DNA of 52,693 nt from Tsukamurella conjunctivitidis (lineage in GTDB: Bacteria; Actinomycetota; Actinomycetes; Mycobacteriales; Mycobacteriaceae), in contig NZ_VIGX01000024.1 of the NCBI RefSeq assembly GCF_007858475.1, positions 1-52,693 of the forward strand, written 5' to 3'. Shown here piece by piece: positions 46,222 through 52,693 of this stretch. The position numbers and the translations under genes were made by a program. Positions within the stretch are counted from its first letter, which is position 1. Each line of letters begins with the position of its first letter. The notes under the pieces were generated by a model. The model was not told the origin of the DNA, did no database searches, and worked only from the letters and a program-made list of their open reading frames with translations.

Positions 46222-46260
46222 ACCCGGGGTACGGGCTCTTGAAGAGTTCGTACCCCGGGT
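46222..46260. repeat. 12-bp inverted repeat (hairpin)
   Basis: ACCCGGGGTACG at 46222-46233 is perfectly complementary to CGTACCCCGGGT at 46249-46260, with a 15-nt loop that contains a small CTC/GAG pairing. No T-tract. It lies 118 bp after the HadA-like gene and might terminate that transcript, or form the edge of the accessory region. Confidence 0.65.
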
Positions 46261-46262
46261 CC

Positions 46263-46299
46263 AGCAGTTCATGGAACTGCTCTCTGTGAGCAGTTCCAT
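46263..46299. repeat. Three-arm repeat that can form two exclusive hairpins
   Basis: AGCAGTTC occurs at 46263-46270 and 46289-46296, with its complement GAACTGCT at 46274-46281 between. Arms 1 and 2 give an 8-bp stem with a 3-nt loop; arms 2 and 3 extend to a perfect 12-bp stem (46271-46282 with 46288-46299, 5-nt loop). The two cannot form together. Confidence 0.6.
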
Positions 46300-46604
46300 A
46301 ATTGCTGTATAGGGTCTGTTTTCCTGACGAGCTTTCCACCTCATTATCGCAGGAATTCCACCGCATTTTGGCGGCGACACGCCGGGTGTCGGAGGCCTTT
46401 GCACAGACCTGTGGTGGTTGGTGGATCGTCGCGGTCTCGTCGGCTTCGGATGTGCCGACCAGACCGGATGTTTGCCGCAGCAGCGGCCTGGGCCAGTGTC
46501 CGATTTTGGGCGGGAGATTTTCCACCACTTATTGGTCGTCTTGCGAAACGCCGGATGGCCGGCCCCGCGCTGTGCAGGGTCGGCCATCCGATCGGGTCGT
46601 TAGG

Positions 46605-48392
46605 TCAGGTTCGGGGTGGTGTCTTCGCCGGCGGGTGTCCGAGATCGGATTCGAGTAGGCGCATGCGGATATCAATGGATTCGGCTCGATGTTGTCGGCG
46701 GTCGTAGGCCTCTTGGGTTCGGTGGTTGAGGACCGCAACTGCCGCGGCGAGGGTGATCGCGATCAACGGCTCGCGTCGTGGTCCCTCGACCAACTCTTTC
46801 AAACCGGTGACGGCGTTCGACTTGAGTTGGCTAAATCGCTGCTCGGTCAGGGACCGGGCAGCCTCGTAGTACAGCGCGTGTTCCCACGATCCGGGAGTCA
46901 TGCCCCATTGGGCGAGCCTGACCTGCGCGTCCGTCAGGGTCACTGTCAGCGATGCGTTCGAGCAGCAACCGTAGCGGTCTGCGGACCACGTCGGGTCGAC
47001 GGCCGGGACGCTGGAATCTACCGACAGCGACTCGGGTTTGAGGGGACACCGGACGCGTCCCATGGCGGCGGGGCAGACCAGCTTGACGGTCAGCTGCTCG
47101 TCTCGGGAGCCTCCGATTCTGGGGCGTCCTCGGGTGACGTTGCGGTATTCGGGGCGCGAGTTTCGACCCATCAGGAGCGGGAGGACCTGCGCGAGGGCTC
47201 GATCGTGCTCGGCGAAACCCGATGGATTCGACTCGAGCATGGTCCGAGTCGGCCGCACCGTGAACTTATTGATGTGCGGCTGCACCGCGGGGCAGTAGAA
47301 GTCCCCGGCGACTTGCACAGGTCCGGGGTCGGTCTCCCGGCCTGCCGCGGGAGCGCTCGGATAGACCGTCTTCCAGTGACTGGGGTAACGGCCGACGTAG
47401 GCGTACTGCTCGCGGATCATCGTCTCGGCCCACGTGCGCTTGACGTTGTACCCCATGTCGACGGTCAGGAACGGCCACGCCGCCCGAGAGCTAGGGCTTC
47501 GACCGGTCAGGTCGTTTTCCTTAGCGCGGGTCAGCGCTTCAAAGAGGCCCTCGACGCTTCCGGAGGTGACCTTGCCGACGCTGATGCCGATGACGACGGG
47601 AGGTACGGCGTGCAGCTGGTGAGGTTCGCCGACTCGGGTCAGCGCAGTCAGACCGAGCCCGTACCCGGACTTGGTGATCTTGCCGTTCAGAGCCAAGGGC
47701 TCAGAGCCGGTGCTCACTGCATTGTCCTGCCCGCGAGCGTAAGGACTTCCTCCCGGGGTGGCGCCACGGAGCTTGTCGTCCTTGACGCCGAGACCGTACA
47801 TGTGACGGGCGAGATCGAAGGTCGATTCATCGGTCACGAGATCGCCGCGACAACCCTGCGGACGTTTCTCCCATACCGAGGCGGCCACGATCCGGTTGAT
47901 CAGGATGCTCAGTCGTTCGCCGGCGCGTTCTGCGGCGTGCCACTGCTCGGCAGTGCGGTCGCCCAGCAGTCGCTTGTGTTCCTTGTTCGAGATCCGTTGG
48001 GCTGGAAGGTCAGCGTGGGGATCGACCGGGGTGAACTGGCGGGTCAGCCAGGCGTGGAATCGGGTGTACTCACGCTTCGGCTGGTCGTAGATGGCCGAGG
48101 TGTTAGCGCCCGCCATACCGACAGCGGCGAGTTGCTCGTCCGTCATGTCCGCGATCGTGGCGAGGATCTGCCGGATCGTCACGGTGCGCTGGTGGAACGT
48201 CAGGATGAGGATCGCGGTCAAGACAGCCCGGCTCGTATAGACGAATCCGCTCGGCGGACGGCCACCGGCGCCCCGTTCCAGGGCATGCCAGCAATCGATC
48301 AGACTGTCGGCTTCGGAACGATCGACGATGCCGATGACCGTGTCGAACAAGCGCGACGCCACGGTCAGCGTGGGCTGAAAGGGAGTGATCAT
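46605..48392 (-). CDS. DDE-type transposase-like protein (595 aa)
   Basis: 595 aa. A catalytic triad fits D188 (LVTDES), D312 (TVDMGYN) and E517 (SLTEQRFSQLK, E followed by a lysine seven residues on), with about 205 residues between the second D and E, as in transposases with an insertion domain. That insertion holds Cys residues (FYCP, VCPAAMGRVRCP, YGCCS) resembling the CP-rich region of IS1182-type elements. N-terminal residues 50-110 look helical and DNA-binding. ATG 48392 overlaps the stop of the recombinase-like gene (ATGA), so the two are coupled. It is divergent from any family I can name; no flanking terminal repeats or target duplication were found. Confidence 0.65.
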   Translation of the reverse strand: MITPFQPTLTVASRLFDTVIGIVDRSEADSLIDCWHALERGAGGRPPSGFVYTSRAVLTAILILTFHQRTVTIRQILATIADMTDEQLAAVGMAGANTSAIYDQPKREYTRFHAWLTRQFTPVDPHADLPAQRISNKEHKRLLGDRTAEQWHAAERAGERLSILINRIVAASVWEKRPQGCRGDLVTDESTFDLARHMYGLGVKDDKLRGATPGGSPYARGQDNAVSTGSEPLALNGKITKSGYGLGLTALTRVGEPHQLHAVPPVVIGISVGKVTSGSVEGLFEALTRAKENDLTGRSPSSRAAWPFLTVDMGYNVKRTWAETMIREQYAYVGRYPSHWKTVYPSAPAAGRETDPGPVQVAGDFYCPAVQPHINKFTVRPTRTMLESNPSGFAEHDRALAQVLPLLMGRNSRPEYRNVTRGRPRIGGSRDEQLTVKLVCPAAMGRVRCPLKPESLSVDSSVPAVDPTWSADRYGCCSNASLTVTLTDAQVRLAQWGMTPGSWEHALYYEAARSLTEQRFSQLKSNAVTGLKELVEGPRREPLIAITLAAAVAVLNHRTQEAYDRRQHRAESIDIRMRLLESDLGHPPAKTPPRT

Positions 48393-49516
48393 GCTGCCCG
48401 CACCCCCGCCACGTAGTCGAGAATCGAGTACATCCCATAGGTGGGTAGATCGGAGGTGACATCGCGGAGCGCTGTCAGCGTGGAGACGTCGGCCAGTTGC
48501 AGCCACAGAGCGGCCGGCACAGTCTCAGCGAGGTCCGTCAGCCACCGCATCCGCAGCGCATACAGGTCCAACGGTCGAAGTTTGTTGGCGCGCAAATCCT
48601 CATTGATCCGGTTCGTCATATTGCGTTCCGCCTGCGCCATCCCCGGCCGAAACAGCGACGCATCCCCCACCTGCTCCGCGCGCGTGAGCAACCGCTTCGA
48701 CGCCGCGCGATCGGCGATAGGGACAGACCTGCGACCGCCACTGTGATTCGGGAGCGAGACGACGGCGTAGTCGCGGCCACCGCGGCGCCCCGCAGTGACA
48801 TCGACACCGCGCAAGACCTTGAAGTCACTCGGTCGGGCACCAACTCCCAGACACAGGTCGAGCAACAGATACAGGCGAACCTGCAGCTCGCCCTCGAGTC
48901 GCGCAGCGGTGCCGTAGTGATCGGCGATCACATGATCACCTGCCGGTCGGTGCCGGCGTGGACGCGGCGAGATCGGCTGATTCGCCGGCGGGAACTCCCG
49001 CGGATGCACCAATCTGCCCACCGCATACAACTGGTACTTCACCTGGTGCATACCCTTATCCCGACCTCGCCGGCGACGATCCTCGAGATACTGGTCCACA
49101 TTCGACCGCCGCAGCGCGACAGACAGATTCAGCGTCCCGCGGTCATCGACGTGGTCGACGAGGTATCGGGACACTTCCCGAGCTGCGGTCTCGACGGTGG
49201 GGCGGGCACGGACCGGCAGCCTCGTCTGCAACGCGGCCGAATACCGCGCTGCCGCATCCACCTTCCGCTTGCTGCGCCCGCGTACTCCCAGCGTTGCGAG
49301 CCGGTCGAAGAGCGCCTCCTGTCCCTCCGGGACCCAGGATTCTGGCGCGCCCAGCCACATCGCAGATACCTGCGGCTCGGGTGGGTGCGCACCTAGTTCC
49401 CGGACCGGTTCCGGCGGTACCGGCAGCTCAGTGACGACCGACGCAGCAGGGGGCGTGGCCGCCACCGAGGCTACCAGCGTCTTGGCGGAGCGATGGTGAC
49501 CGGAGAAGCGGGCCAT
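48389..49516 (-). CDS. Degenerate tyrosine-recombinase-like protein (375 aa)
   Basis: 375 aa. It reads as an integrase with N-terminal SAM-like DNA-binding region (about 130-200) and a catalytic-like domain. YLLLDLCLGVGARPSDFKVLRGVDV matches box I with R228. RPLDLYALRMRWLTDLAE takes the place of box II, but the HxxR motif is Y319-A-L-R322, so His is replaced by Tyr. The end (YGMYSILDYV) offers candidate nucleophile tyrosines. ATG 49516 is fixed by a perfect SD (GGAGGTGATC) 5 nt upstream. Coupled on both sides, to a 23-aa ORF and to the transposase-like gene. Whether it is active is open. Confidence 0.65.
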   Translation of the reverse strand: MARFSGHHRSAKTLVASVAATPPAASVVTELPVPPEPVRELGAHPPEPQVSAMWLGAPESWVPEGQEALFDRLATLGVRGRSKRKVDAAARYSAALQTRLPVRARPTVETAAREVSRYLVDHVDDRGTLNLSVALRRSNVDQYLEDRRRRGRDKGMHQVKYQLYAVGRLVHPREFPPANQPISPRPRRHRPAGDHVIADHYGTAARLEGELQVRLYLLLDLCLGVGARPSDFKVLRGVDVTAGRRGGRDYAVVSLPNHSGGRRSVPIADRAASKRLLTRAEQVGDASLFRPGMAQAERNMTNRINEDLRANKLRPLDLYALRMRWLTDLAETVPAALWLQLADVSTLTALRDVTSDLPTYGMYSILDYVAGVRAA

Positions 49517-49587
49517 CAGCGGATCACCTCCGCCGACACACGTGCCGCGACGTCCTTGACATCGACTTTTGGGTACGACAAACTCAT
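49516..49587 (-). CDS. 23-aa ORF coupled to the recombinase-like gene
   Basis: ATG 49587 with SD-like AAGGGGAT about 6 nt upstream; encodes MSLSYPKVDVKDVAARVSAEVIR and stops in TGATG, so its stop shares a base with the recombinase start. Its last codons hold the recombinase SD (GGAGGTGATC). It may act as a leader ORF for translational coupling, or be a tiny protein. It is too short to assess by homology. Confidence 0.45.
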   Translation of the reverse strand: MSLSYPKVDVKDVAARVSAEVIR

Positions 49588-49620
49588 GACAGATCCCCTT
49601 CCCAGGACGATCTAGGTTCG

Positions 49621-49640
49621 AGACCAATTGGCGTTGGTCT
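49621..49640. repeat. Inverted repeat with TTGGCG centre (site 1)
   Basis: AGACCAA - TTGGCG - TTGGTCT: perfect 7-bp arms around a 6-bp centre, 34 bp upstream of the 23-aa ORF on the minus strand. It resembles a tyrosine-recombinase core site (inverted arms around a 6-8 bp spacer) or a leader-RNA hairpin. Confidence 0.55.
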
Positions 49641-49647
49641 AGTGCGC

Positions 49648-49679
49648 AAGGCCTGCGAGTTGGCGCTCGTAGGCCTTTT
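49648..49679. repeat. Inverted repeat with TTGGCG centre (site 2), T-tract on plus strand
   Basis: 12-bp arms (AAGGCCTGCGAG / CTCGTAGGCCTT, one G-T mismatch) around the same TTGGCG centre as site 1, in the same orientation, centre-to-centre 32 bp. Read on the plus strand it is followed by TTTT and could be an intrinsic terminator; alternatively it is a second recombination-type site. Confidence 0.55.
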
Positions 49680-49729
49680 GCGTGTGCGAGGTAAGACGAG
49701 AAGTACGGCGTCCCGTCAGGTTGGTGTGG

Positions 49730-49915
49730 TTACTCCGTACGCGCTCCTTCAGACTCGATCGTGTTCAACCCCGTCTCGATCACGCGAGCAGCCGCGTCCG
49801 AGAGCCGCATGCGCCGCTCAGAGGCGAAGTCGTACAGCCGCTCAGCGAGCTCGGACTCGAGCCGCACCTCGACCCGAACACGGTCGAGGTGCGGCAGGGC
49901 ACGGCGCTCGGACAT
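49730..49915 (-). CDS. Ribbon-helix-helix (CopG-like) small DNA-binding protein
   Basis: 61 aa from ATG 49915, with GGAG 5 nt upstream (GTG 49939 would add 8 residues). The core RVRVEVRLESELAERLYDFASERRMRLSDAAARVIETGL has the beta strand followed by two helices of RHH/CopG or MetJ/Arc type proteins. Such proteins are antitoxins or plasmid/mobile-element repressors. No toxin gene is visible next to it; it lies 142 bp upstream of the recombinase operon on the same strand and could regulate it. Confidence 0.75.
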   Translation of the reverse strand: MSERRALPHLDRVRVEVRLESELAERLYDFASERRMRLSDAAARVIETGLNTIESEGARTE

Positions 49916-50250
49916 CGCGTCTCCGATCGGTGGAGGCACCGGTGAACTACCGGCGCAACACAGACCCTAGCGGCGCTCGCACCCATGTGGCGGCGGCTAA
50001 GCACCTGGATGCAATTCTTCAGATCACTTGCGCCACAATATGATTTATCGCCAGCGGGAAGTCAAACTATGCATATTCAAAACGCCCGGCTGACCTGGGG
50101 AGATACACCCGACTCCCCTCGATAGCGGCCAGTGACGCACGCTAACTAATCTCGCGTGCGTCGGAATCTCGCTCCGGCGTGTCGCAGGCGGCGCGCGCCC
50201 CTCACACGAACCGCACCCTCGGCGTCAGCACTCGGTGGCACGATCGGACC
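49916..50250. other. Intergenic, partly AT-rich, with one hairpin
   Basis: 335 bp. 50030-50090 is AT-rich for this genome (CACAATATGATTTATC and ATGCATATTC). The inverted repeat at 50134-50162 is listed separately. No gene supported. Confidence 0.45.
50134..50162. repeat. 9-bp inverted repeat
   Basis: GACGCACGC (50134-50142) and GCGTGCGTC (50154-50162) with an 11-nt loop TAACTAATCTC. No T-tract. Could be an operator or a weak terminator. Confidence 0.5.
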
Positions 50251-50397
50251 GTGGACTCCCTCGAGCCGAAGCTGACCTACGAACTGGCTAAGCGGAACAT
50301 CCCGCTTACCGCTCAGGAGTTCATCGATGCAGTCCTCGACGCGCTCGGCGAAGCCACGACTTCCTTGACGTCATGCGTGAACTGTGGTCCTAACTAA
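50251..50397 (+). CDS. Small hypothetical ORF (48 aa)
   Basis: 48 aa from GTG 50251 (open frame upstream to GTG 50179). Reads DSLEPKLTYELAKRNIPLTAQEFIDAVLDALGEATTS... with a helical, acidic middle and a CVNCGPN end. Not recognised. Coding status rests only on its amino-acid pattern. Confidence 0.35.
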   Translation: MDSLEPKLTYELAKRNIPLTAQEFIDAVLDALGEATTSLTSCVNCGPN

Positions 50398-50404
50398 CGG
50401 TCAC

Positions 50405-50548
50405 TCAAATCTCGCGCCGGTTGTCGATGACAGCGTCCGCCAAGGTGATCGCAGGTGCTTCGAGCAAGGCGGCGAGCACCTCCCGGTGGTCGGTTGGGTC
50501 GAGCGCACCGACCTCGCCTGCCTCGATGAGCTCGCTCGCTCGTGCCAC
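50405..50548 (-). CDS. Small hypothetical ORF (47 aa), possibly a fragment
   Basis: 47 aa from GTG 50548 with a good SD (AGGAGA, 5 nt). ARASELIEAGEVGALDPTDHREVLAALLEAPAITLADAVIDNRREI looks like the amphipathic part of a larger protein. Convergent with the ORF at 50251, 7 bp apart. Family not recognised. Confidence 0.4.
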   Translation of the reverse strand: MARASELIEAGEVGALDPTDHREVLAALLEAPAITLADAVIDNRREI

Positions 50549-50938
50549 ACTGATCTCCTGATTTCCGATTCGACAAGCGCACCGACGGGTGCGCGACAAC
50601 CAGCTGCTGCGTCGCTTCTCAACCGACCGGAGGCCCTCGCGTACTCCCCTCCGTCGCGAACCGACTACGGCGAATCTCCCGTACATGAATCTGTCGCCGA
50701 CGCAGCATATCTGCGCAAATCTCGCGACGGGGCTACGCTGAAGGGGCGCCGTGGTGCGCAGGTGACCTCCCAGGGCTCCGACCTTGGAATCGGACCCGGG
50801 ACCGCCACGAGGCCCAGCCTCATGTCCTCCCCACTCTGATTTGAGGCTGGGTCTCCCCTCATCCTGCAAGCATCCCCAGAAGCGCAACACCGCAGCACCA
50901 CCAGCTGCGCTAGAATACCAATTACGTTGGGACAGAAT
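50549..50938. other. Intergenic with one terminator-like hairpin
   Basis: 390 bp. CCCAGCCTCA (50813-50822) pairs with TGAGGCTGGG (50842-50851), a 10-bp stem with a 19-nt loop. TAGAAT at 50911-50916 is a good -10 box for the small membrane peptide at 50939. No further gene supported. Confidence 0.45.
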
Positions 50939-51037
50939 ATGACCAGAGATGAGAACGCCGAACCCAAAGGGCGGCGCAAGTGGCCGTGGATTCTCGGAGC
51001 CGCGGTCGCCGCGTTACTTGCGTGGAGCATGAGCTAG
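50939..51037 (+). CDS. 32-aa single-pass membrane peptide
   Basis: Sequence [19 protein letters not shown] followed by [14 protein letters not shown] charged, basic N-terminus leads into one hydrophobic helix (about residues 15-32), the layout of small membrane peptides. A TAGAAT -10 box lies at 50911-50916, and a GGGACAG SD-like stretch about 3-9 nt before the ATG. The helix runs to the C-terminus, giving a likely N-in topology. Toxin, transporter regulator or membrane-stress peptide are all possible; none is shown. Confidence 0.5.
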
Positions 51038-51264
51038 ACCCCTCGGTCGACTCAGAACGCTCTAGGCCTAGCCACCGACCGAGATGTCTGCTACTGTCAA
51101 ATTGGTTGATTTTCTTGGTGGCTCGTTTCGCGAAGATTTTCCGCGGCGGACACATCCCAAACTCCGTGAGTAGTCCCGGTAGCTTTGTTTCTGCGTACCT
51201 CCGCACTACCCAAGATCGAAACACTCGGTCTTGCAACACCTTTGATACTCAGGAGAGTAATCGC

Positions 51265-51474
51265 ATGGCTCAGCAGGGCACCGTCAAGTGGTTCAACGCC
51301 GACAAGGGCTTCGGGTTCATCACCCCGGACTCCGGCAGCAAGGACCTCTTCGTCCACTTCTCCGGCATCGTCGCCAATGGCGGCTTCCGCAGCCTCGACG
51401 AGAATGACCGCGTCAGCTTCGAGGAGCAGGCCGGCGACCGCGGCCCGCAGGCCGTCTCCGTGCAGACCATCTAA
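51265..51474 (+). CDS. cspA: Cold-shock protein (CspA family)
   Basis: 69 aa, one cold-shock domain. RNA-binding motifs RNP1 (KGFGFI) and RNP2 (LFVHF) are intact; the sequence begins [22 protein letters not shown]. It binds single-stranded nucleic acid as an RNA chaperone. AGGAGAG lies 8 nt before ATG. A long upstream region (51038-51264, no gene) may be a structured cold-responsive leader as in other csp genes. A hairpin follows the gene. Confidence 0.95.
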
Positions 51475-51497
51475 AGCCTCACAGCTCGCGTACCAGG

Positions 51498-51535
51498 AGG
51501 AGCTGGCGGGTCCGCGACAGGACCCACCAGCTCCT
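51498..51535. terminator. Terminator hairpin between csp and a convergent small gene
   Basis: 16-bp stem (AGGAGCTGGCGGGTCC with GGACCCACCAGCTCCT, one G-U type mismatch) around a 6-nt loop, 23 bp after the csp stop and 30 bp before the stop of the convergent gene at 51566. No long T-tract. Confidence 0.7.
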
Positions 51536-51565
51536 ACTGCTTCGTTTCACCCGTGCAGAGCTCAG

Positions 51566-51745
51566 TCAGATAAAGAACCGGTGCCCGTCGACCATCAGCA
51601 CCTCGTCCCGGCGCACCCACGGGTAGTCCTCGACCGCGGACTCCAGATCGACACTGCGACGCTGCTCCACGAGATCCGCAGGGTCTGCATGAGAGGCACT
51701 CTCACCGAGAAGCTGGGCAAGAGCACCACCGCTGAAACTAGACAT
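51566..51745 (-). CDS. Small hypothetical protein (59 aa)
   Basis: 59 aa from ATG 51745, with a strong SD (GAGGAGG, 6 nt spacing). Sequence MSSFSGGALAQLLGESASH..., ending in a hydrophobic HRFFI. VDLESAVEDYPWVRRDEVLMVDGHRF has an acidic middle and aromatic end. Not recognised. The SD, the terminator-flanked position and a proper start make it a credible gene. Confidence 0.6.
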   Translation of the reverse strand: MSSFSGGALAQLLGESASHADPADLVEQRRSVDLESAVEDYPWVRRDEVLMVDGHRFFI

Positions 51746-51886
51746 TTCACGCCTCCTCGTCGCCTGCAACGCTGGAACCAACCAACGCCATCTGTCACCT
51801 GATCACCCGCGCCGCTCGCGAGTGGCCTCCTGTCTACCCCGACGACTGCCCTCGCGCCACCGTTTGAGTACCCCGGCTTTGCCGCT

Positions 51887-52221
51887 GATCTGCCTGGCTT
51901 GGAGAGAGTGGTGCACATCTTGGGCTACCGCGTCGGGAGCAGGATCCTTTGAGTGTTACGTGGTCAGAGGATCCAGGTCCTGGCCAGCGAGCGCGGAGTT
52001 CCGTGGACGATCGTCAACCCCTCCAGTGTCATCGGCGACAGCACGACCGGTGAGTCCGACCAGCACCTCTGCCTGGCCCCACCGTCGGACATATAAGGGA
52101 CGGCAGCGCAGCCGCGCTGCCCGGCGGCGCATCGACCGTTCCTCCCGGTCGTCACAGTCGACCACCTCGCGGCCTTGATGGCAGCTACGGCGATCGATCC
52201 GGGTGCCGTAAACAAGGCCAG
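51887..52221 (+). pseudogene. Frameshifted NAD-dependent epimerase/SDR remnant
   Basis: Three pieces of one extended-SDR protein lie in order but in different frames. First, DLPGLERVVHILGYRVGSR at 51887-51949, ending in TGA. Second, VLASERGVPWTIVNPSSVIGDSTTGESDQH from 51977. Third, LPVVTVDHLAALMAATAIDPGAVNKA after an indel near 52140. N- and C-terminal parts are absent. At least two frameshifts and in-frame stops make it non-functional. The parent is of the NmrA-like/epimerase type. Confidence 0.7.
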
Positions 52222-52266
52222 CGTTCGCCGCAGCCGCCGTGCGGCAGATGACTGGACATGCGCGGG

Positions 52267-52282
52267 CCGGGCGTACGCCCGG
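52267..52282. repeat. 16-bp perfect palindrome
   Basis: CCGGGCGTACGCCCGG, self-complementary with no spacer. It sits between the epimerase remnant and the truncated gene at 52410. It could be a regulator site, or chance in GC-rich DNA. Confidence 0.4.
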
Positions 52283-52409
52283 TGCGATGCCATCCAGAGG
52301 CACTGCGGCGCCGAATACTTGATAGCGGCGAACAGAGCGTCGCGCGTTGGTGCACCGAACCCGGCGCCCCAACGGCATACGACAACCCAACGAATGTGAG
52401 CTGATCTGC

Positions 52410-52589
52410 ATGGTTACAGGAGCACCCCACCGCGAGAATCTCGCCGACCGCCGAGAATTCCGTCCCGTGGCCCTTGTGGTCTCGCTGCTGTGCGTCGGAA
52501 TCGTTGCCGGCGTCGGTGGGGCGGCGTCAGCTGACGCGGCGTCAACCTACTCGCAACTCGCTCAACGGGACTGCTGCACGATCGGGTGA
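52410..52589 (+). CDS. Secreted/membrane protein N-terminus, truncated by the IS3 element
   Basis: 59 aa. MVTGAPHRENLADRREFRP precedes a signal-like helix (about residues 20-40, VALVVSLLCVGIVAGVGGAASADA) with an AxA-like cleavage region, then STYSQLAQRDCCTIG and a stop at the edge of the IS3-like sequence. The last residues probably come from the insertion, so this is likely the 5' stub of a broken gene. Confidence 0.5.
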   Translation: MVTGAPHRENLADRREFRPVALVVSLLCVGIVAGVGGAASADAASTYSQLAQRDCCTIG

Positions 52590-52600
52590 CAGTGTCGGTG

Positions 52601-52693
52601 TCATGCCGCTGAGGCGGCTGTGTTGATGATCGTCTCGTATTCGACGGGCGTCAACCGGCCGAGGCGGACCTGACGGCGTCGGCGGTGGTAGGT
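52601..52693 (-). mobile_element. IS3-family transposase (orfB), C-terminal end only
   Basis: Minus-strand frame of 30 residues plus stop, running off the right edge. It reads TYHRRRRRQVRLGRLTPVEYE..., the typical C-terminus of IS3 OrfB transposases (YHRRRxHxxLGxLTPxEYE). The terminal repeat would lie near 52570-52600, where TGACAGTGTCGGTGTCA contains a short inverted repeat. The body of the element lies beyond the window. Confidence 0.8.

Follow-up and report, generated by a model that had tools for sequence, protein, structure and literature searches.

A probable site-specific DDE transposon with a degenerate tyrosine recombinase behind tRNA-Leu of Tsukamurella conjunctivitidis

Introduction

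A stretch of 52,693 nucleotides from Tsukamurella conjunctivitidis (contig NZ_VIGX01000024.1, positions 1 to 52,693, in the following referred to as the window) carries on its minus strand a short operon in which a protein resembling a tyrosine recombinase directly precedes one resembling a DDE transposase. This raises the question of what the two proteins do together, and which piece of DNA they might move to which place. A first-pass annotation of the locus had spoken of two recombination-type proteins, had pointed out that their arrangement follows neither a standard insertion sequence (IS) nor the Tn3/TnpI plan, and had proposed a poorly described transposon family. It had missed the setting: judged from genome comparisons, the operon forms the right-hand terminus of a genomic island. 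This island has inverted-repeat ends and a 5-bp target duplication, and it sits 5 nt past the acceptor stem of tRNA-Leu(CAG). We consider it probable that this is a site-specific DDE transposon moving a genomic island, with an inactivated tyrosine recombinase as its target selector.

The operon and its DDE transposase

Three minus-strand open reading frames (ORFs) make up the operon, a leader of 23 amino acids (aa; 49516..49587), the recombinase-like gene of 375 aa (48389..49516) and the transposase gene of 595 aa (46605..48392). The stop of the leader overlaps the recombinase start by 1 bp and the recombinase gene overlaps the transposase gene by 4 bp, exactly as first annotated. The interval originally given for the unit, 48389..49587, holds the leader and the recombinase gene but leaves the transposase outside; the unit described here begins with a target duplication at 46283 and extends beyond the last base of the window, 52693. 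A mechanical ORF list contained longer frames of 412 and 633 aa that start at upstream TTG/GTG codons, but the alignments appear to support the shorter starts better, since M1 and R3 are invariant among the 17 rows of the recombinase alignment and since the N-termini of the transposase and its relatives align. The recombinase-like gene precedes the transposase gene in all 18 loci first collected, and this conservation of order rules out a chance overlap of ORFs.

The 595-aa protein is a DDE transposase, because the triad D188, D312 and E517, hitherto a guess, is invariant in 16 of 16 aligned relatives and because the best match to its predicted structure is the Tn5 transposase, with the same fold over 311 residues. 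The predicted structure is an RNase H-like fold that holds the DDE triad and has an insertion ahead of the Glu helix. R513, E517 and K524 are invariant with the spacing R-(3)-E-(6)-K, which we take to be that of the YREK signature of IS4/Tn5 transposases; position 510, presumably the Tyr position of that signature, is a Glu in all 16 sequences. No known family model was matched, neither from Pfam (0/16) nor from NCBIfam (0/16, both at E 0.1). The 375-aa and 595-aa proteins of the window themselves have no Pfam or NCBIfam match, and a sequence search of the PDB with the transposase profile returned nothing at E 1. The Tn3 family with TnpI or TnpS-TnpT differs in having a TnpA of about 1000 aa, compared with 595 aa and no Pfam transposase match here, and the conserved pair of a tyrosine-recombinase-fold protein with a mid-sized DDE protein is indeed not the standard plan.

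A tyrosine recombinase fold without catalytic residues

Structure prediction likewise yielded a tyrosine-recombinase fold for the 375-aa protein, with a full-length recombinase domain, so that both proteins have the folds initially assigned to them. A profile alignment of the family with five recombinases of the same genome gave an E value of 8.4e-6, while a sequence search of the PDB with the recombinase profile found only a MarR regulator (0.036) and an archaeal Xer (0.14). The fold matches include the phage regulators SroF and MrpR; the absence of other folds from the structural match lists was not used as evidence.

Against the catalytic reference set R-K-HxxR-H/W-Y, with the Lys outside the residue check, the box-II His was found in 0 of 17 sequences and the box-III His/Trp in 0 of 17, and Arg-I is replaced by Ser in seven of the 17. 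The box-II Arg is kept in 16 of 17. No Tyr is invariant: a near-canonical LPxY Tyr occurs in 11 proteins, and its position is taken by Phe in four, Ala in one and Pro in one. As far as the alignment can tell, the catalytic set is lost across the family, and the notion of two recombination-type proteins cannot be upheld for the smaller one. As the catalytic residues are absent, the protein is most likely a DNA-binding target selector. A plain transposon with a resolvase was rejected as well, the recombinase-like protein being devoid of catalytic residues and the element ends being explained without any res-type use.

Pairing of the two genes

The transposase was found in 11 of 151 neighbourhood genomes (in one of them only as a 49-residue remnant), in eight Corynebacterium loci of a named genome collection in 7 of 296 genomes of the class and, by profile search, in 5 of 296 of the phylum; these samples overlap in the genome of the window and in G052. 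Counted as distinct places, and with G105 included, which was reached via its recombinase-like gene, these amount to 31. Directly upstream and on the same strand, 28 of the 31 places have the recombinase-like gene. The three unpaired ones are remnants of 49 residues in G022 and of 36 residues in G223, and a place where the contig ends (G980:C12), and separate occurrence was not seen among intact transposase matches. The two proteins also diverge in parallel, with a Mantel r of 0.97 between their distances that was reached in 0 of 10,000 permutations over 15 shared rows, some of them nearly identical. Carriage by plasmids or phages was considered and dropped after tblastn of the transposase against plasmid and phage collections found nothing.

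Some loci depart from the usual layout. The transposase relative is preceded by three consecutive recombinase-like domains in G810 (L195) and by two in G758 (L199). At L043 in G052 the transposase frame is broken and an otherwise frequent small upstream ORF is gone, with both ends and the 5-bp duplication still readable. A Corynebacterium propinquum contig (L034) shares 99.9% identity over 4.2 kb with the element of C. tuberculostearicum, and the tRNA-Leu of this C. propinquum genome looks unoccupied; contamination or a very recent transfer are both possible.

An island behind tRNA-Leu

Two pairs of elements whose identity stops abruptly pointed to GAGCAGTTCYAYGAACTGC followed by a terminator hairpin, a combination that stands directly behind tRNA-Leu in 13 of 16 genomes of the genus. 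In the window the corresponding palindrome, GAGCAGTTCCATGAACTGC, flanks the operon at 46264..46282 on the minus strand, and the same sequence follows tRNA-Leu in 13 of the 16 genomes; a terminator-like hairpin after it, outside the element, can be read in the sequence at 46223..46259 (minus strand). The six genus genomes that hold the pair have one copy of palindrome and hairpin at the tRNA and a second one at the right end of the operon. Wherever both the tRNA gene and the operon are visible, in nine genomes (G005, G015, G036, G052, G071, G090, G223, G246 and C. tuberculostearicum G290), tRNA-Leu(CAG) is on the same contig as the operon, upstream of it and in the same orientation. From left to right end, seven islands measure 11,824, 14,902, 18,373, 18,562, 22,091, 28,585 and 29,853 bp. 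The span in G005 is 101,267 bp, with further left-end-like sites in between. As such sites recur behind a single tRNA-Leu, this suggests that several islands have piled up through successive insertions into one position. On G005:C1 (987633-1091825; L078, L039) four left-end-like sites are spread over about 104 kb behind that gene.

The part of the island inside the window (46288..52693, minus strand) has a G+C content of 63.9%, compared with 71.7% for the rest, and continues past the contig end. The tRNA of this genome is found on contig C276, 4.3 kb from the contig end, and the left end was placed at C276:6618. By eye, the end of C276 and the window end at 52693 (L079) resemble opposite ends of an IS3-type transposase gene, and this would account for the break in the assembly; an overlap between the two was sought and none was found. 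C276 presumably joins the window, which would give an island of about 12 kb. The right flank in the window resembles the region behind tRNA-Leu in G009, G010, G013 and G003, all of which are devoid of the pair.

Among the 13 genus genomes with this sequence behind tRNA-Leu (e.g. L047, L048, L050, L051, L053, L054 and L057), seven without the pair keep a left-end-like palindrome and hairpin there, either as solo ends or as ends turned into the terminator of the tRNA. The palindrome behind tRNA-Leu is not universal in the order, where the exact pattern of tRNA plus palindrome was met in 1 of 200 genomes; note that this pattern was too strict. The right flank that follows the duplication in C. 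tuberculostearicum begins with CGAAATCCGGAG, and among 151 Corynebacterium genomes two have the tRNA 3' end joined to this flank; in both, the tRNA end also carries a further insertion that looks IS481-like by eye. An IS481-like element, again by eye, sits exactly at the tRNA-Leu 3' end in Corynebacterium G300, G346 and G294 (L144, L182, L183, L181), and in G300 and G346 the insertion repeats the tRNA end.

Element ends and target duplication

The left end starts with GAGCRGTTC and the right end closes with GAACCGCTC or a close variant, making the two imperfect inverted repeats. The right end of the window element (46288..46604, minus strand), whose last bases are GAACTGCTC with the junction at 46288, was compared with 16 others. 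It carries three minus-strand copies of GTGGAA at 46334..46339, 46356..46361 and 46520..46525, that is, 52, 74 and 238 bp from the end, and the 22-bp spacing of the first two is kept in most relatives. The motif itself varies between elements but agrees within each. In 7 of 13 genomes compared it recurs at distances from the tip of about 50, 72 and 236 bp; in G295 the distances are 50, 72 and 228, G006 has the same spacing shifted by 22, G052 has another motif at 53, 75 and 240, G290 and G071 have two copies, and the pattern in G036 is unclear. Inverted copies of these repeats were sought in the left end with no convincing result, so that the ends look asymmetric. The left end carries a palindrome, a hairpin and a T-run.

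Immediately outside the right end of the window element lies ACAGA (46283..46287, minus strand), and the left copy of this pentamer follows tRNA-Leu on C276 of the same genome. The duplication was readable on both sides in 17 of 20 loci, leaving out G289 and G293, where no right end was found, and G223, where the contig ends. Right ends were chosen by a script that did not use the tRNA of the genome in question, with an end consensus derived from the same loci. As evidenced by this analysis, in 15 of the 17 genomes the pentamer after the right end is identical to the one behind the tRNA stem. When the tRNA pentamers were shuffled, the mean number of matches was 1.94 and the maximum 9, and 0 of 100,000 shuffles reached 15, in a procedure that ignores relatedness. 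In G005 six bases are shared instead of five. The tRNA-Leu islands have one fixed site and one orientation, with a 5-bp duplication.

Might this nevertheless be an ordinary integrase island, with an active, unusual 375-aa recombinase that uses the LPxY Tyr, an exchange in the 5-bp overlap between GAACCGCTC and GAGCAGTTC, and the DDE protein as an accessory or hitch-hiker? We regard this as rather improbable. The site behind a tRNA gene, the direct palindrome copies at both ends and the inverted-repeat core around 5 bp are integrase-like traits, and islands with active integrases are likewise flanked by copies of the tRNA 3' trailer; yet the recombinase-like protein here does not have the catalytic set and the short duplication derives from the host. 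The conserved Arg-II (16/17) and the LPxY Tyr (11/17) are set against a box-II His and a box-III His/Trp absent from all 17 proteins, Ser for Arg-I in seven, and Phe, Ala or Pro for Tyr in four, one and one. The elements of G011 and G001 are 95% identical over 6.4 kb and still have different pentamers, each matching its own host, which is what duplication by a transposase predicts and what is difficult to square with an integrase that needs matched overlaps. Furthermore, a hitch-hiking DDE gene would not remain paired in 28 of 31 places with an invariant triad. Insertion by a DDE transposase at tRNA-Leu is strongly supported, on the basis of sequence comparison.

Like the IS4/Tn5 (IS50) transposases, the DDE protein has this fold across 311 residues and spaces its conserved residues R-(3)-E-(6)-K. 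The element differs in the lack of a sequence-level family match, its partner protein, its tRNA target, a cargo of tens of kilobases and the 5-bp duplication. The target duplication of Tn5 is 9 bp.

Target selection

We propose that the 595-aa protein would cut the element ends and join them to the target. The 375-aa protein, a former tyrosine recombinase without catalysis, would bring the transposase to the 3' end of tRNA-Leu(CAG), which it most likely binds itself. The island would always enter 5 nt behind the acceptor stem and in a single orientation, with the 5 bp at this point duplicated. Since the left end supplies its own palindrome, hairpin and T-run, the tRNA would keep a terminator. 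We infer that it is the DDE protein that inserts the island; the element may still be mobile, and its two small ORFs may have roles of their own.

One of these is a 69-aa ORF (49730..49939, minus strand), the fourth gene of the module, ribbon-helix-helix (RHH)-like by eye and without a Pfam family at the cut-off. The other is the leader: a short ORF precedes the recombinase gene in 18 of 18 loci, and in 12 of them it has a leader-type start M[S/F/C][I/L/T] and the 1-base stop/start overlap, so that it probably serves translational coupling to the recombinase. A hairpin between the two (window about 49645-49690), found at the same place in many relatives and often with a GGGCNGCAACCC-like top, is perhaps a terminator or attenuator.

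An unlikely variant of the proposal has the DDE protein transpose but leaves the choice of target to the transposase itself or to the RHH-like protein, the pseudo-recombinase serving end binding, synapsis or repression in the manner of the phage regulators SroF and MrpR that share its fold. Relatives of the RHH-like ORF are nearly as constant as the pair, and 19 of 20 loci have one ahead of the recombinase gene. The exception, L043, does not have it (the search did not extend to distant relatives), whereas every one of the 28 paired loci contains the pseudo-recombinase. A recombinase-fold target selector also has a precedent: TnsF of the Tn7-like Tn6022 is an inactivated tyrosine recombinase shown to select one chromosomal site (PMC10293859). 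Target selection by the pseudo-recombinase is our best inference from its fold, its lost catalysis, the constant pairing and the TnsF precedent.

Tn6022 equally combines a DDE transposition system with a catalytically inactivated tyrosine-recombinase-fold protein, but has TnsABC and TniQ, a TnsF with zinc fingers and a truncated catalytic domain, and comM as its target (PMC10293859). The present element instead has a Tn5-like transposase, a full-length recombinase domain and a site at a tRNA 3' end, and the one complete island checked yielded no TnsC/TniQ. The Tsy transposon is likewise built round a TnsF-like recombinase-fold protein, but has active tyrosine recombinases and no DDE transposase, and inserts into comM (PMC10293859). 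The tRNA-targeting Tn7-like CAST I-D, finally, shows protein-guided homing behind a tRNA-Leu gene (PMC10293859), but it does so 30-33 nt downstream via TnsD, as opposed to 5 nt behind the acceptor stem here. That our element is itself Tn7-like, with its other genes missed, is very improbable: it has the 5-bp duplication, the fixed orientation, right-end repeats 22 bp apart and a recombinase-fold selector, but besides the pair none of the nine scanned ORFs of the G071 island matched TnsC or TniQ/TnsD, other islands having only been sampled.

Related pairs and cargo

Outside the islands with mapped ends, more distant pairs stand beside tRNA-Leu(CAG) in G640 and G663, beside tRNA-Ala(CGC) in G565 and beside tRNA-Ser(CGA) in G105. 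Restriction-modification genes occur in all three islands with sampled cargo (eight ORFs, chosen by eye): an Eco57I-type methylase and a ResIII helicase in G071, an MmeI-type methylase, a helicase and a T5orf172 protein in G015, and the type I restriction subunits R and S in C. tuberculostearicum. Two cargo ORFs scanned in the window matched nothing in Pfam.

Several observations weigh against a site-specific transposon guided by an inactivated recombinase. Two of the 17 duplications fail; in G294 the script had picked the wrong end, and ACGAT is found on both sides by hand, but G296 shows a real mismatch of ACAAT versus ACCAT. The G296 contig, which shares 99.9% identity with the C. tuberculostearicum element, may be a contamination. 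With the box-II Arg and the near-canonical Tyr so widely kept, some members of the family may have kept activity. G056 has two recombinase-like ORFs and no detected transposase, with one of its two places examined. The module points towards the tRNA 3' end in G640, G663, G565 and G105, but away from it in the Mycobacteriales-type islands, including that of the window; four further phylum-level pairs have no tRNA in the 9.7-16 kb fetched, and no clean empty site was found among the 151 Corynebacterium genomes.

Conclusions

The best reading of the locus is a site-specific transposon of a new family, in line with the suggestion of a poorly described one. The family is apparently unnamed, as neither Pfam nor NCBIfam holds a matching model and a literature search found no paper describing or naming it, which is weak evidence given that subscription journals lie mostly outside its coverage. 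It is an even call whether the pairs represent a phylum-wide class of DDE transposons that is unrelated to Tn7, has made its own conversion of a tyrosine recombinase to a selector, uses no TnsC-like ATPase, shifts its landing site between tRNA-Leu, tRNA-Ala and tRNA-Ser by divergence of that protein, and acts, behind tRNA genes of Actinomycetota, as a main carrier of defence cargo.

If true, this would be a second, independent case of a dead recombinase guiding a DDE transposase, apparently without the Tn7 adaptor machinery, so that a guided transposon in its simplest form may require two proteins. It would also offer an explanation for tRNA-linked islands without an active integrase, and the relatives of this pair beside other tRNA genes would constitute natural material on how a selector reads its site.
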